From a virus, in IMG/VR virus record IMGVR_UViG_3300036853_000022, positions 1-24,601 of that record: a DNA stretch of 24,601 nucleotides; one strand, given 5' to 3'. The notes under the pieces were generated by a model. That model worked only from the letters and a program-made list of their open reading frames with translations, had not been told where the DNA came from and did no database searches. A program made the translations under genes and the position numbers. The number at the start of each line of letters is the position of its first letter. Positions within the stretch are counted from its first letter, which is position 1. Below are positions 14,534-22,462 of the stretch, piece after piece.

Positions 14534-15166
14534 TTGACGACCTACCCTAAGCCCGGCGCCATCGCGGATGTCATCGGTACCACCGGCCGCATCGAGGCGA
14601 CGTGGGGCAACGCCATCCGTGACCGGGTGGTCAACGAGTTCGCGACCACCGCCGACCGCGACTCGTTCTTCACTGCACCGTGGGAAGGCGCCTGTGCGTA
14701 CGTCACGTTGACGCACACCCTCTACATTTACCAAGGCGTCGGCTGGGCAGCGTTCGATTGCAAACCGCAGCTCTGGACGCCGGTACTGACGCAAGGTGTC
14801 ACCGTGTCCGCGACGGTCACCCGTGCCACCTATGTGCGTGCGGGTGGCCGGGTACACGGTGAGGTGCGGCTCGACATCACCAGCTCGGGTACCGCGCTCG
14901 TCGTCATCGCCGTGAACCTGCCCGCCGCGTTGACCGCCGCCGGTTCCGGCATCTACGGCGTCGGGCAAGGCGTGCTCTACGACTCCTCCACCGGTGTCGT
15001 CTATCCGTTCATTGCGTCCACGACCGCCACGACCGTCATGCAGTTCATGGGCACCGCCTCGAACAGGCAAGTCACAGAATACCTGGGCACGTCGACGTCG
15101 GACTTCGCTCTTGCTGTCGCGTCGTCGGATGCGATCGTCTTCTCGTTTCAATACGACCTCGCATGA
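14534..15166 (+). CDS. Tail fibre / tip protein
   Basis: A 210-aa protein starting at TTG 14534, with GGGGAGG about 10 bases upstream and no better ATG or GTG nearby. The N-terminus (KPGAIADVIGTTGRIEATWG, then NAIRDRVVNEFATTADRDSF) and the short AYVTLTHTLYIYQGVGWA element are typical of phage fibre bases. The C-terminal ~120 residues are a beta domain (WTPVLTQGVTVSATV, YVRAGGRVHGEVRLDI) found at fibre tips. The role is likely receptor contact. The TTG start implies modest expression. Confidence 0.75.
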   Translation: MTTYPKPGAIADVIGTTGRIEATWGNAIRDRVVNEFATTADRDSFFTAPWEGACAYVTLTHTLYIYQGVGWAAFDCKPQLWTPVLTQGVTVSATVTRATYVRAGGRVHGEVRLDITSSGTALVVIAVNLPAALTAAGSGIYGVGQGVLYDSSTGVVYPFIASTTATTVMQFMGTASNRQVTEYLGTSTSDFALAVASSDAIVFSFQYDLA

Positions 15167-15873
15167 CCGGCCGCGCCGCCCACCTCGCCTACCGGCTTCA
15201 CCTCTTCGACGCCGTCGTCGCCACCCGCCCGACCGTGTTCGACTATTCGTTCTGGCGGCCCGACCCGCACGCGCTGAAGGCCGCGGGGATCGTCGGTGTG
15301 CAGCGCTACCTGACCACGACGAGCTCGGCGAAGAGGATCACGAAACCCGAATACGACGCGCTCCACGCCGCCGGCCTCGCCGTGCTCCTCGGCTTCGAAG
15401 ATGCGTCGACATCATGGCAGGGCGGCAGACAAGCCGGCCTCATACACGGTCGGGCGGCACGCGCGCAGGCCCGAGCGCTCGGCCATCCAGACTCTCGGCC
15501 GATCGCCTTCGCTATCGACTCCGGGGACCAGGTGAACAACGTGGGTACCGCTGTCGCCTACGTGAGCGGTTGTGTCGACGGGTCGGGCACCGGCCGTCAG
15601 ATGGTGTACGCCGGCACGAACGTCATTGAAGCCTGCTGGCACGCCGACCTGATAACCGGCGGTTGGCAACCCGCGGCGGCCTCATGGTCCCAGGTCCCGT
15701 CGAACCATGTCGTGCTCAAGCAGCTCACCTCGAAGTCGTTCCCGCAGTTCCCACCGTCCGCCTACGACGAAAACCTTGTGCTCGCGGCCGACTGGGGGCA
15801 GTGGCCGATCGGCGGGTTCGTACCCGAACCGCCGTTCACCGTCGCCGACGCCAACCTGATTTGGGGTGTGTGA
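15163..15873 (+). CDS. Endolysin-type hydrolase, DUF1906 (Rv2525c-like glycoside hydrolase-like)
   Basis: A 236-aa protein coupled by ATGA. The (beta/alpha)-barrel signature of DUF1906 is seen as FDYSFWRPDPHALKAAG (D27), VGVQRYLTT, LGFEDAS (E79) and PIAFAIDSGD (D119), acidic residues at strand ends as in GH25-like enzymes. It would cleave the glycan backbone of host peptidoglycan at lysis or entry. No signal peptide or separate binding domain is evident, so release would need a holin. The C-terminus ends soon after the catalytic domain. It is the first of two adjacent wall enzymes. Confidence 0.85.
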   Translation: MTGRAAHLAYRLHLFDAVVATRPTVFDYSFWRPDPHALKAAGIVGVQRYLTTTSSAKRITKPEYDALHAAGLAVLLGFEDASTSWQGGRQAGLIHGRAARAQARALGHPDSRPIAFAIDSGDQVNNVGTAVAYVSGCVDGSGTGRQMVYAGTNVIEACWHADLITGGWQPAAASWSQVPSNHVVLKQLTSKSFPQFPPSAYDENLVLAADWGQWPIGGFVPEPPFTVADANLIWGV

Positions 15874-16778
15874 ATGTGGCGCTCCCGTACCTCCACTTCC
15901 CTGCCAGTCTGAGCGGGATCGCGAACGGGCAGCTACCCAACTCACAGCTGATGGTGATCGCCGGGATCGGCGGTTTCCAGTTGCAGGCCGCCCGGGCTTT
16001 ACGTGCCCTCGCCGTCGCTGCTCTACATGACGGGATCAACGTCGCGTCGGTCGGCGCCTACCGGTCGTACGCCGCGCAAGTCACCTTGTTCCTGCAGCGT
16101 TACACGACGGTCCCGCAGCCAGGGCAACGCACCGAAGTGTTCAACGGTGTCCGCTACTGGCTGAAGCCAGGGGCAGCAGGTGCCGCCCTACCGGGCACCT
16201 CAAACCACGGGTGGGGTCTCGCCTCCGACATGGCGATCCGGTTGCCGAGCGGACAGGTCGTGTCGCTCGAGGTGGACCCTGACTCGTCGGGGCCGGCCAC
16301 GACCTTGTGGGATTGGTTGAACATCCACGGCCGTACCTACGGCTGGTCGTGGGGTGAAGCCGTTTCGGAGCGGTGGCATTGGGTTTACATCGAAGGTGAC
16401 GCCATCCCGGCGGCGGTCCTCAAGTTCGAAAACGCAGATCCTCCAAAGGAGGACGACATGGCTCTATCCACTCAGGAGGCGCAATCTGTGTGGGACGCCC
16501 CGAAGATCACGTCGCTGCTCGACGGTCAGCAGTACCCGCCGGCTCTGTTCATCCAACACATCCACCAGGATGCGATCACTGCCGTCGGCACCGCGGATCA
16601 GGCCCGCATCCAGGCGACACAAGCGAACGATGCGGCAACGAAGAACACTGCGATCGTTACCGAGCTGACCGTCGCAGTCCGCGACCTCCAGACGACGATG
16701 GACGCGATCCTGGCGGCGCTCCACGGCGGTGAGATCAACGTGGCGGGCACCGTCCACATCGTGGTCCCCGACTCGTGA
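15870..16778 (+). CDS. M15 (VanY/D-Ala-D-Ala carboxypeptidase-type) peptidase with C-terminal module
   Basis: A 302-aa protein. I chose GTG 15870 (GTGA with the previous stop), since the open frame upstream lies inside the DUF1906 gene. The zinc site fits M15: SNHGWGLASD (H113, D120) and ERWHWVY (E167, H170). It would cut peptide bonds of peptidoglycan stems. Residues 197-302 are a different, Ala/Thr-rich helical module (WDAPKITSLLDGQQYPPALF, then IVTELTVAVRDLQTTMDAIL) that looks like an oligomerising coiled coil. An internal start with its own SD marks this module (next entries). Together with the DUF1906 enzyme it gives glycan and peptide cleavage. Confidence 0.88.
   Translation: MNVALPYLHFPASLSGIANGQLPNSQLMVIAGIGGFQLQAARALRALAVAALHDGINVASVGAYRSYAAQVTLFLQRYTTVPQPGQRTEVFNGVRYWLKPGAAGAALPGTSNHGWGLASDMAIRLPSGQVVSLEVDPDSSGPATTLWDWLNIHGRTYGWSWGEAVSERWHWVYIEGDAIPAAVLKFENADPPKEDDMALSTQEAQSVWDAPKITSLLDGQQYPPALFIQHIHQDAITAVGTADQARIQATQANDAATKNTAIVTELTVAVRDLQTTMDAILAALHGGEINVAGTVHIVVPDS
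16439..16453 (+). promoter_or_regulatory. Ribosome-binding site inside a perfect hairpin, within the M15 gene
   Basis: AAAGGAGG (16445-16452) is one of the best SDs in the window and stands 5 bases before an in-frame ATG at 16458. The bases TCCTCC (16439-16444) just upstream are the exact complement of GGAGGA (16448-16453), leaving an AAA loop. In RNA this 6-bp stem would hide the SD. Translation by ribosomes from the upstream start would melt it. This is visible in the sequence, while regulation is inference. Confidence 0.6.
16458..16778 (+). CDS. Internal-start product: C-terminal module of the M15 enzyme alone
   Basis: A 106-aa in-frame product from ATG 16458 (residue 197 of the long form), with AAAGGAGG 5 bases before it. 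It contains the whole C-terminal module and none of the peptidase residues. Some Gram-positive phage endolysins are known to make a full-length chain plus a C-terminal chain from an internal start, the two assembling into an active oligomer. The same layout is seen here. The domain boundary coincides with the start (KEDDM), which supports real use. Whether it is made is not shown by sequence. Confidence 0.5.
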   Translation: MALSTQEAQSVWDAPKITSLLDGQQYPPALFIQHIHQDAITAVGTADQARIQATQANDAATKNTAIVTELTVAVRDLQTTMDAILAALHGGEINVAGTVHIVVPDS

Positions 16779-16855: not shown

Positions 16856-17068
16856 ATGACTGTGGTCATCGTGGCGGGCGCGTTCGGGATCGCCATGTTT
16901 TATGTCGGGATGCTCTTTGGATATTGGGCGCATGGAGGTGGAGGGCATGAGCGGCGAGACGGAGGAGCGGCCGTCCGGGTGGACCGTAGACACACTCCGC
17001 GTGCACCTCGAGCGGCTGATAAACGAGCAGAGCAAGTACAGCGACGAACGGTTCCGGGCGGCAGATAA
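16856..17068 (+). CDS. Small single-span membrane protein overlapping the next gene
   Basis: A 70-aa ORF starts at ATG 16856, immediately after the previous stop. Residues 2-25 are a strong membrane segment (VVIVAGAFGIAMFYVGMLFG). The rest is Arg/Gly-rich and lies in a second frame over the start of the downstream coiled-coil gene (122-nt overlap). The membrane part lies entirely before the overlap, and a small membrane protein in a lysis region is plausible. The Arg-rich tail may just be the alternate reading of its neighbour, so the call is tentative. Confidence 0.5.
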   Translation: MTVVIVAGAFGIAMFYVGMLFGYWAHGGGGHERRDGGAAVRVDRRHTPRAPRAADKRAEQVQRRTVPGGR

Positions 17069-17378
17069 GGCCGTCGAAGCGGCGCTCCTCGCCGCTGAGA
17101 AAGCCGTCAACAAAGCGGAGACGGCAGCCGCGCGGCGGTTCGAGGCCGTCAACGAGTTCCGTGGGCAGCTCGCCGATCAGGCCGCGACGCTCATGCCACG
17201 CAACGAAGCCGAGACTCGCATCAACGCGATGTCCGAAAAGTTGAACGACCTTTCGGCACGGGTCGACAAGTCGGCCGGTGCAGCACGGGGCGGGCAACTC
17301 GCGATCGGGTACGTCATCACGGCTGTGACTGTGGTCATCGCGATCGGCGGTGTGCTGATCGCTCTTCTCGCTCACTAG
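16947..17378 (+). CDS. Coiled-coil protein with C-terminal membrane anchor
   Basis: A 143-aa protein. ATG 16947 is preferred because GGAGG stands 8 bases upstream. ATGs at 16902 and 16932 are alternatives. Residues ~15-105 are charged helix (VHLERLINEQSKYSDERFRA, KAVEAALLAAEKAVNKAE, RFEAVNEFRGQLADQ). The phrase ADQAATLMPRNEAE is characteristic of a widespread phage family found near lysis genes. Residues ~117-140 are a membrane span (YVITAVTVVIAIGGVLIALL). A tail-anchored coiled coil such as this could act with the holin or as an envelope spacer. Its role is not established. Confidence 0.85.
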   Translation: MSGETEERPSGWTVDTLRVHLERLINEQSKYSDERFRAADKAVEAALLAAEKAVNKAETAAARRFEAVNEFRGQLADQAATLMPRNEAETRINAMSEKLNDLSARVDKSAGAARGGQLAIGYVITAVTVVIAIGGVLIALLAH

Positions 17379-17389
17379 GGGGTTGGGTC

Positions 17390-17950
17390 ATGCGGGCAGC
17401 GATCGGGGCGGCACTCGTTGGGATCGTCGTCGGTGCGTTCGTGTTCATGGTCGGCCTCTCCGGCATCGGGAAGGTCGACCAGCACAGCGACCCGCCGCCA
17501 CCACAAGTGACCGACACGTTCGAACAGATCACCGTGCCACGGCCGCGGGTCGTCACGACAGCACCGAGGGCGACAACGACGACCTACCCGCCGGTCGTGA
17601 CGTTGCCGAATGATTCAATCATTCCATCATCGACTCCGCCGCCCGTGCTCGCTGTCGGCGACACACCACGACCCCGGTTCCGCATGGGTAGCACCGCGAC
17701 CACCATCCCGGTACGGCTCATCGACCCTCTCGTTGTCCGTGTGGTGCGCACCACGACAACGGTCACCCCGTCGTCGGTGGAGACACCGACACAAACCATG
17801 GCGGGGTCGACGGATCCACCCGCGACGTCGGCCCCGCCACCCACCGATCCGCCACCCACCGATCCGCCGCCGACGGACCCGCCGGAGACGACCACCATCC
17901 CACCCTCGACCGATCCGCCACCGACGGACCCGGCGCCACCTACGACCTGA
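17390..17950 (+). CDS. Membrane-anchored Pro/Thr-rich protein
   Basis: A 186-aa protein at ATG 17390. A single N-terminal span (AAIGAALVGIVVGAFVFMVG) is followed by about 160 residues rich in Pro and Thr, ending in PPTDP repeats. With an uncleaved anchor the Pro/Thr part would lie outside the membrane and could extend through the cell wall. It lies inside the lysis region between two other envelope proteins. A spanin-like or wall-spanning spacer is a possibility, but spanins are chiefly known for Gram-negative hosts. I do not recognise the family. Confidence 0.75.
   Translation: MRAAIGAALVGIVVGAFVFMVGLSGIGKVDQHSDPPPPQVTDTFEQITVPRPRVVTTAPRATTTTYPPVVTLPNDSIIPSSTPPPVLAVGDTPRPRFRMGSTATTIPVRLIDPLVVRVVRTTTTVTPSSVETPTQTMAGSTDPPATSAPPPTDPPPTDPPPTDPPETTTIPPSTDPPPTDPAPPTT
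17837..17881 (+). repeat. Tandem 15-bp repeat encoding PPTDP
   Basis: Three in-frame 15-bp units at 17837-17851, 17852-17866 and 17867-17881. The first two are identical (CCACCCACCGATCCG) and the third differs at synonymous sites. A diverged copy follows near 17921-17935. Such units expand and shrink easily by slippage. Confidence 0.85.
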
Positions 17951-18345: not shown

Positions 18346-18573
18346 ATGTTCACGAAGCAATGGCTGATCGACGTAGCCGAACGGACCTTCTGGACGTTCG
18401 TCGAGACGTTCCTGTCGATCGTCCTCGTCGCGGGCGTCGCGAATTGGGACATCTCGACGCTACGGGCCGCTGGCCTGTCCGCGCTCGCCGCCGCGCTCGC
18501 CGTCGTCAAGGGTGCCATCGCATCGGCCCGCGCCGGCACCATCTCACCCGCCTCGACAGCGAAGCCCGCGTGA
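18346..18573 (+). CDS. Holin (r1t type)
   Basis: A 75-aa membrane protein at ATG 18346 with AAGGGAG 4 bases upstream. The pattern FTKQWLIDVAERTFWTFVET, then NWDISTLRAAGLSALAAALA and VVKG, is the phage_r1t_holin layout: a short N-terminal amphipathic region, two hydrophobic spans and a polar C-terminus. It would accumulate in the cytoplasmic membrane and open holes that release the two wall hydrolases. It is TGATG-coupled to the next membrane protein. Confidence 0.85.
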   Translation: MFTKQWLIDVAERTFWTFVETFLSIVLVAGVANWDISTLRAAGLSALAAALAVVKGAIASARAGTISPASTAKPA

Positions 18574-19915: not shown

Positions 19916-20104
19916 GTGGCGCTCCTCTCCCCTTTCCTCTGGAAGGTAGAGGCCGGGCAGACATGGAACCAGATCGCGAACGCGCTGCACATCCCTGTCG
20001 CCGATCTCCTCCGCGCCAATGACATAGCGCCGACCGGGTCGGTTGGATCGAACACGCCGCGTGCCGGTCGTGTGATCCTCCTCCCTTTAGGAGTAGCGGG
20101 ATGA
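19916..20104 (+). CDS. Stand-alone LysM-domain protein
   Basis: A 62-aa protein starting at GTG 19916. An ATG at 19914 is out of frame. One LysM domain fills it: VEAGQTWNQIANALHIPV, DLLRANDIA, and the closing GRVILLP. LysM binds N-acetylglucosamine of peptidoglycan. It has no catalytic domain or signal peptide. Lying among fibre genes it could be a wall-binding part of the tail tip or a peptide that assembles with a neighbour. Small LysM-like proteins also occur in tail-completion roles (as in some phage tail adaptor proteins). Confidence 0.8.
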   Translation: MALLSPFLWKVEAGQTWNQIANALHIPVADLLRANDIAPTGSVGSNTPRAGRVILLPLGVAG

Positions 20105-20586
20105 CCATTGTCGCGACCGTCCCGTTCACTTTGAACAGCGGCACCCGGACCTTCGGCCCGTTCACGATTCCCGATGCGATCAAGTCGGTCCGCGGTTCGG
20201 TTGCCCCGTGGACCGGGCAGGGCAAGCTGAGTCTGTCGATCGAAATGTCGCTTGACGGTGGCGCCACATGGCGGCCGGTCTGTTCGATCAGCGAGGCAGG
20301 CCCGGCCACGTTCAAAGCGAATGACGGTCTGTGGCTCCGCTTCGACGGGCTGTGGCGGTTGTGCCAATGCGGCGAGGTGTACATCCCTGGGCATCCGGCG
20401 AACGCCGCCGGTCTCCTCGTCCACTCGTCGCATGCCTTCCAAGACATCCGCGGCCTCCCGCAATCCGCGATCACGTTCCACAACCCTGACTTGACGCCGG
20501 CCACCGGCCAGCCGCTACGACAGGTCCGCCTGACCGCCGTCGCAACCGGGAACATAAACTCGACGTTCACTGCTGAAGTGACATGA
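20101..20586 (+). CDS. Beta-sandwich virion-type protein
   Basis: A 161-aa protein with ATG 20101 overlapping the LysM stop (ATGA), GGAG upstream. TFGPFTIPDAI, LSLSIEMSLDGGATWRPV and a Cys pair in RLCQCGEVYI resemble carbohydrate-binding or Ig-like fibre proteins (the SLDGGATW turn is common in phage sandwich domains). It probably belongs with the adsorption genes. No family named. Confidence 0.7.
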   Translation: MTIVATVPFTLNSGTRTFGPFTIPDAIKSVRGSVAPWTGQGKLSLSIEMSLDGGATWRPVCSISEAGPATFKANDGLWLRFDGLWRLCQCGEVYIPGHPANAAGLLVHSSHAFQDIRGLPQSAITFHNPDLTPATGQPLRQVRLTAVATGNINSTFTAEVT

Positions 20587-20587
20587 C

Positions 20588-22462
20588 ATGGCGCTCGCGG
20601 TAGCGCAGGTCGTCGGCAACGCCAGCACCACCGGCGGTGTCTCGGTGGCCGTCACGTTCGGTTCGGCGACGACCGCCGGTTCGCTCATCGCGGCGTTCAA
20701 CCCGACATACGACACGTCGGGCGCCGCGGTCGCCGGTGACGTCACCGACAACAAGTCGAACACCTACTCGCTTTGCACCCCTCATCTGTTCGGTGGTGTG
20801 AACGCCACCGGTGTCTCCGCCTACTACAACAACGCCGGCACCCGTGGCGCGACGCACACGGTCACCCTCAACCTTGTCAACAGTGCATCGAACACCTCCA
20901 ACCTGGCGCTCGCTGAGGTCACCGGCCAAGACTCGTCGACGCCGTTCGATACGACGACGGGCGCGACCGCCAACGACGGCACCTCGCCGTTCACGGTCAC
21001 CGCCGCCGCCGCGATCTCCGGGAACCAGATCGCTTTCTACGCCTGTTCGATTGACACGGGCGGCATAAACGCATGGACGAACCCGGCCGGCTACACCGAC
21101 GTCGCCAAACTCGACCTCGGCACACAGGACCTTGTTTCGCTTGTCTGCTACAAGATCAACGAGACGGGCACCCCGGCACCGGCGGCGTCGAACGCTGACA
21201 CGGTCGGCGCGGGTAGCGCGCGGCAGCTCTTCGTTACGTTCAAAGAGTCGGGCGGTACTCCCGCTCCTGACCCCACGATCGGTGACTGGCGGCGCCTCGG
21301 CCTGTGGACCCGCCCCGGGGCGAAACCCGCCCAGATACGAGCGGGTGCCCAGCGGCCTCTGCCCCGCCCGATCTACGGGCCGTCCGCGGTAGGGCCGTCC
21401 ACCTTCCTACAAGACATCACCGTCGACCAATTCCAGACCCCGACGATCGCCCGGGCGGTCACGCACATCGTGCCGACGGTCACGCAGACACAAACGCCGA
21501 CCGTCGCCAAGGCCGTTACGCACACGGTGCCAACCGCCACGCAGGTGCAGACCCCGACGATCGTGAAAAGTGTTGGGAAACCGCTGGCGCTCGTCACACA
21601 GGTGCAGACACCGACGCTCGCCATGTCGAAGGCGTTCGGTCGGGTGCTCACAGTCACCCAAGTTCAGACCGTGTCGATGGTCCGCCAGGTCGGCAAGGTG
21701 ATGTCGGCGACACAGGTGCAGACCCGCACCCTCGTCAAGTCCGCCGGCAAGGTGCTCACCGCCACCGAGCTCCAAACCCCGACGATCATCCGGTCAGTCG
21801 GCAAGCTCCTCTCGGCGACACAGGTGCAGACCGCGACGCTCGTCGCGTCGAAGGCGTTCCTGCGGACCCTGAGCGCGACGCAGGTGCAGACCGTCAGCAT
21901 GGTCCGCTCGGTCGGCAAGGTCATCACCCGGACACAGACACAAACCCCGACGCTCGTCCGCCAGGTCGGCAAGCTGCTCAGCCTCGTGCAGACACAGACC
22001 GTGTCGATCACGAAGAGCATCGCCAAGACGTTTACGGCGGTCGAGCTCCAAACCCCGACGCTGCTCGCCAGCAAAGCGTTCCTCCGCGCGTTGAACGCCA
22101 CACAGACACAGACGGCGACGATGGTGCGGTCCGTCGGCAAGGTGCTCACCCGCACACAGACGCAGACACCGGTGATGGCGCGTTCCATCGGCAAGCTGCT
22201 CACCGCGACGCAGACACAGACGATCACGATCACGAAGGCGATCGGCAAGACCCTCGCGGCCGTCCAGTCGCAGCTGGCTTCGCTCGTCGCACAGTTCATC
22301 ACCGGTGGTGCGCTGCCACCGTCGCTCGCTGCCGCTGCCATCTACTACCGGGCGGCGGTCGTCGAGTACTTCCGTCCAGCCGTGGCCCGCCTCTGGCGAC
22401 GAGCGCCCGATGAGAGCGGCCGCCCTGCCCCTGACCGCCGCAACCGACCAGGAGCACCATGA
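20588..22462 (+). CDS. Long repeat-containing tail fibre protein
   Basis: A 624-aa protein. Residues 1-~220 form a beta-rich adhesin module (VTDNKSNTYSL, ATHTVTLNLVNSASNTSNLA, AEVTGQDSSTPFD, NPAGYTDVAKLDL). A Pro-rich linker (PAPDPTIGDWRRLGLWTRPG) follows, then residues ~276-570 hold about 16 repeats of 18-20 residues built on T-Q-x-Q-T-x-T (next entry). The basic C-terminus includes EYFRPAVARLWRR. It is probably an elongated fibre: the N-terminal module may bind either host or tail, and the repeats form the shaft. The N-terminal module resembles in style the first domain of the 662-aa minor tail protein. Confidence 0.8.
   Translation: MALAVAQVVGNASTTGGVSVAVTFGSATTAGSLIAAFNPTYDTSGAAVAGDVTDNKSNTYSLCTPHLFGGVNATGVSAYYNNAGTRGATHTVTLNLVNSASNTSNLALAEVTGQDSSTPFDTTTGATANDGTSPFTVTAAAAISGNQIAFYACSIDTGGINAWTNPAGYTDVAKLDLGTQDLVSLVCYKINETGTPAPAASNADTVGAGSARQLFVTFKESGGTPAPDPTIGDWRRLGLWTRPGAKPAQIRAGAQRPLPRPIYGPSAVGPSTFLQDITVDQFQTPTIARAVTHIVPTVTQTQTPTVAKAVTHTVPTATQVQTPTIVKSVGKPLALVTQVQTPTLAMSKAFGRVLTVTQVQTVSMVRQVGKVMSATQVQTRTLVKSAGKVLTATELQTPTIIRSVGKLLSATQVQTATLVASKAFLRTLSATQVQTVSMVRSVGKVITRTQTQTPTLVRQVGKLLSLVQTQTVSITKSIAKTFTAVELQTPTLLASKAFLRALNATQTQTATMVRSVGKVLTRTQTQTPVMARSIGKLLTATQTQTITITKAIGKTLAAVQSQLASLVAQFITGGALPPSLAAAAIYYRAAVVEYFRPAVARLWRRAPDESGRPAPDRRNRPGAP
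21413..22300 (+). repeat. Sixteen-unit 54-60 bp tandem repeat with higher-order period
   Basis: The encoded unit is approximately ATQxQTxTLVRSxGKxL(S/T), usually 18 residues. Units 4, 8 and 12 are longer (20 residues) because of a SKAF insertion, so a super-repeat of four units is superimposed: three normal and one SKAF unit. Units 5/9 (QVQTVSMVRxVGKV) and 8/12 (xSKAFLRxL) are the closest pairs. The DNA has diverged far more than the protein, so the repeats are old and selected at protein level. Confidence 0.9.

Follow-up and report, generated by a model that had tools for sequence, protein, structure and literature searches.

An M15/VanY-type endolysin gene, carried on a viral record from IMG/VR (24,601 bases, the window), contains an in-frame internal start at the border between the peptidase and its C-terminal tail. 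This start is likely to be functional and to make the product a Type II internal-start endolysin of an actinophage-like virus. The gene probably makes both the whole enzyme and a free tail, a two-chain arrangement that is a trick already known among phage lysins. The features of the gene, with the evidence for each in parentheses, are as follows.

15876..16778, + strand: M15/VanY-type endolysin gene, long form (PF02557 VanY, E 8.5e-15; M15 fold neighbours; motif residues)
15876..16433, + strand: catalytic M15 domain, residues 1 to ~186 (pLDDT profile)
16439..16444, + strand: TCCTCC, perfect complement of the Shine-Dalgarno (SD) core, the anti-SD (letters; absent from 20 other junctions)
16445..16452, + strand: internal SD, SD1, AAAGGAGG (duplex with the 16S tail)
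16458..16778, + strand: internal ORF from ATG 16458, predicted 106-aa C-terminal chain, a helical module without family match (initiation score, predicted structure)
16475..16479, + strand: second GGAGG, SD2, alternative partner of TCCTCC (duplex -10.3 kcal/mol)
16488..16490, + strand: GTG, weaker second internal start candidate, 96-aa chain (second-best initiation score in the gene)

The long form ends at the stop codon 16776-16778 and comprises 300 aa when read from GTG 15876; the 302 aa of the original prediction are obtained from GTG 15870, and the length of 106 aa given for the predicted C-terminal chain agrees with the reading frame. A single ORF is predicted to combine an N-terminal VanY domain, whose PF02557 match spans residues 37-172, with a 106-residue helical C-terminal tail. 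The SxHxxGxxxD ... ExWH motif of M15/VanY enzymes is complete, with H111, D118, E165 and H168 invariant among 26 aligned sequences, as are S109 and W167 (alignment A6), and the fold neighbours and solved relatives of the domain include LdcB, VanY, VanXY, Ply500 and LysB4. In the AlphaFold model most 10-residue blocks of the catalytic part have a pLDDT of 91-97 up to residue 180 and residues 181-190 score 84, after which confidence drops to about 50 from residue 191, placing the border at approximately residue 195, the internal Met. The tail is modelled as three low-confidence helices (about 50-70 pLDDT) followed by a disordered end; it has no Pfam match, and its PHROG matches are all weak (E 0.04-0.07).

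Directly upstream, 15163-15873 encodes an Rv2525c-like glycoside-hydrolase (PF08924, E 1.3e-17; PHROG lysis/endolysin), so that two lysin-type genes adjoin. The next gene downstream, 16947-17378, shows an SD duplex stronger than any other seen (-14.3); its product, a long helix that is hydrophobic at its C-terminus, is possibly a holin or spanin partner. A small protein encoded at 18346-18573 gives a weak match to the r1t holin family (PF16945, E 8.7e-05, bit score below the cut-off), and, by eye, the gene that follows the M15 gene of viral locus L006 resembles this r1t-type holin-like protein. Elsewhere in the window, 17390-17950 encodes a protein rich in Pro and Thr in which DPPPTDPP is repeated (17834-17883, 15-bp unit), and 20588-22462 a protein of 624 aa in which TATQVQTPTLVKSVGK-like units recur, with tandem arrays at 21434-21563 and 22099-22221. 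Judged by eye, the gene at 20101-20586, which lies over 3 kb downstream of the M15 gene, is of a similar kind to the small gene that follows the M15 gene in MW202803 (L003, 3631-3972).

The letters on which the original prediction was based are all exact: TCCTCC at 16439-16444 is followed by AAA (16445-16447) and GGAGGA (16448-16453), with the in-frame ATG at 16458. SD1 is predicted to pair with the 16S tail at -11.8 kcal/mol and is separated by a 5-nt spacer, ACGAC (16453-16457), from ATG 16458-16460, which lies in frame with the VanY ORF and opens a coding region of 16458-16775, plus stop. SD2 lies 8 nt before the in-frame GTG 16488. By a simplified RBS-calculator-like initiation score, written for this analysis to count mRNA structure and rough in its absolute values, ATG 16458 outranks every other in-frame start of the gene, as well as 15 further gene starts in the window. 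The ATG sits in the linker, where model confidence falls between the two folded parts; this position, together with the top score and the same-border starts in relatives described below, supports the claim of an internal start at the peptidase/tail border. When the window was tested alone against synonymous recodings that keep the peptide, the result fell short of significance (p 0.38), because KEDDM can hardly be encoded without creating an SD.

Close relatives of the full protein or of its tail were absent from the viral contigs and phage records, homologues of the tail were found in none of the collections searched, and comparison of the tail with all ORFs of an early set of relatives gave nothing significant. 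Conservation was therefore tested on M15 relatives gathered from viral contigs by profile search, plus further loci from tail-profile searches; a scan of genome contigs returned mainly distant bacterial VanY genes, which were left out of the counts. The C-terminal tails of these relatives are interchangeable, being absent, of PG_binding or LysM type, or drawn from a range of orphan modules. A start was counted as strong when the SD duplex before its ATG or GTG reached -8 kcal/mol or better, and the border was taken as the stretch 18-30 codons beyond the WH motif. Strong in-frame starts at the border were present in 11 of the 13 viral M15 genes with tails other than PG_binding or LysM, the window included, vs none of the 24 with PG_binding or LysM tails (Fisher 9e-8), in a test that was framed after the pattern had been seen, with tail classes set by regular expression, and in which a single clade holds 10 of the 13 orphan-tail genes, though with mostly unrelated tails, the tree requiring about four label changes. 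Within these 13 genes the frequency of strong in-frame starts was 11/15 at the junction, 3/45 in the catalytic body and 1/46 in the tail, compared with 1/26 for out-of-frame junction starts and 1.6% for 13-codon windows of the body. The start falls at the same residue in two pairs of related tails whose linkers differ (L006/L099, 54% identical, and L086/L087, 71%), although the SD is weak in L087, as it is in L249, and the synonymous-recoding null gave a combined p of 0.02. Eight M15 endolysins of cultured Curtobacterium and Clavibacter phages likewise have an ATG at the border, the SD being good in Pize (-10.3), Grotle (-8.6) and Shrew (-7.5) and its strength falling through SunnyD (-5.4) and CN1A (-4.2) to Ayka (-1.1). 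As the tails are mostly unrelated, comparison of the sequences indicates that the border start recurs while the tail changes.

The original prediction went further in holding that the SD is locked by its adjacent anti-SD, which would hide it until ribosomes translating the long form melt the hairpin and would thereby fix the ratio of the two chains. Taken alone, the 19-mer does fold to -8.2 kcal/mol (z -3.1), a stability reached by only 1 of 200 shuffles, and given the peptide DPPKED the anti-SD requires just two synonymous codons, both rare here, GAT (22% of Asp) and CCT (9% of Pro). The energy needed to open the SD is also high relative to synonymous recodings with 20-nt flanks (p 0.016), and together with the rare codons this hints at a non-random local fold, a hint weakened by the rise to p 0.105 with 40-nt flanks. 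In RNAs from 76 nt to the whole gene, however, the anti-SD:SD1 helix has an ensemble probability of only 0.42-0.47, because TCCTCC pairs as well with the second GGAGG (16475), at 0.49-0.53 over the same range. The SD is no more buried than that of relatives, its unpaired probability of 0.38 comparing with 0.15-0.88 at 20 other junctions that lack a perfect six-base anti-SD, and the cost of opening it lies within the span of such costs at the window's ordinary gene starts. Pairing of the SD with rRNA (about -11.6) is moreover stronger than the hairpin (-8.2), so that ATG 16458 still scores strongest among the starts tested. The perfect anti-SD is unique to the window, with none at the 20 other junction sites, which rules out the hairpin as a conserved element. 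Coupling through an SD-sequestering hairpin is not supported: SD2 competes, so that sequestration of SD1 does not dominate the predicted folds, and the structure is not kept in relatives; nor is a chain ratio tied to long-form translation supported. The hairpin is at most a modest influence, reflecting chance or a mild damper on initiation and not a lock, and the lock itself is very unlikely. A role for TCCTCC as a shared switch arm is also highly improbable: its pairing with SD1 would mask ATG 16458, whereas pairing with SD2 would mask GTG 16488. The two pairings are nearly equal in predicted probability, and if such a switch existed, ribosome passage or the stage of RNA folding would choose among two C-terminal chains and the long chain.

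Two further readings concern the start and the gene themselves. The tail may once have been a separate small gene, with an SD and ATG that linger from a recent fusion, or from SD-like KED/EED linkers, and at which initiation is incidental. Related catalytic domains do carry swapped tails, several of which begin with Met at the border, and the recoding nulls indicate that a linker with many Glu, Lys and Gly residues raises SD likeness by itself. Against this, the start is kept between the diverged L006 and L099 tails with their different linkers, strong starts are almost confined to the gene's own reading frame, and stand-alone copies of the tails were not found: the A3 tail search returned three loci, two of them those from which A3 was built, the A4 search one locus, the L086 record, and the L261 and L106 tails had no stand-alone copies in phages. 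A fusion remnant appears unlikely. It is more doubtful still that the gene encodes a virion-associated or housekeeping M15 peptidase in which the internal start has some other role, a reading raised by the PHROG search, in which the long form best matched a tape-measure profile that includes an M15-like stretch. The adjoining Rv2525c-like lysis-type gene, the r1t-type holin-like gene downstream and the annotation of related genes as endolysins all speak instead for an endolysin.

For a functional internal start there are close parallels, in line with the statement of the original prediction that such starts yield a C-terminal chain in several endolysins of Gram-positive phages. By definition, a Type II iTSS lies after the last catalytic domain and before the C-terminal module, which is thereby made on its own in addition to the full enzyme (PMC12203907), and precedents include CTP1L, CS74L and CD27L of clostridial phages (PMC4777826); LysIME-EF1 is cited as a further example in PMC12203907. 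The linker SDs described for CTP1L are of the GGAGG or AAGGGGG type, and their ablation abolishes the short chain and alters the oligomer (PMC4777826). These four enzymes resemble the gene in the window in having an in-frame SD and ATG or GTG in the linker between the catalytic and C-terminal parts and hence an expected short C-terminal chain, whereas the present enzyme, known here from sequence, is an M15 peptidase with an orphan helical tail outside the recognised wall-binding families. LysP7951, a streptococcal example, utilizes a gene-internal start to produce full-length and C-terminal chains that multimerise (PMC9430671). Among actinobacterial phages, the endolysin gene of Clavibacter phage CMP1 has been remarked to contain a second ATG, in frame and with a possible SD four nt before it (PMC3111421), where, as here, a C-terminal chain is predicted. 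Compared by description, the CMP1 chain is 166 aa long and holds the binding domain (PMC3111421), vs 106 aa in the window, and the remark mentions no anti-SD. In mycobacteriophage Ms6 (lysA384/lysA241), likewise, the lysin gene encloses a second ORF in the same frame, which has an SD of its own, TGGAGGT, and is proven to be translated (PMC3111421), although it is of Type I, the short form retaining a catalytic domain, unlike the tail-only chain predicted here. The PhaLP survey predicted in-frame starts in about half of Gram-positive endolysins by a method that also called starts in 15% of portal genes (PMC9430671). The word 'hairpin' is absent from the main text of PMC9430671, PMC4777826, PMC3111421 and PMC12203907, the first of which mentions no secondary structure in its main text either, and nothing on RNA structure near such internal starts was found in the open-licence literature.

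By analogy with these systems, ribosomes starting at GTG 15876 (or 15870) would synthesize the full M15 peptidase with its tail, while those loading at AAAGGAGG and ATG 16458 would synthesize the 106-aa tail alone. The free tail would then most likely join the tail of the full-length enzyme and supply it with further units for binding or oligomerisation, on the pattern of CTP1L and LysIME-EF1; we infer in this way that the 106-aa chain is produced, co-assembles with the enzyme and binds the wall.

The M15 endolysins of uncultured, actinophage-like viruses may accordingly be added to the two-polypeptide lysins. The pattern in relatives suggests the rule that, in M15 endolysins, tails other than the standard peptidoglycan binders come with a translation start of their own, which would allow a tail to be swapped and yet still be made as a free subunit. 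Such a rule would bear on the question of why lysins so often contain internal starts, and on the way in which enzymes of this kind should be expressed for study.
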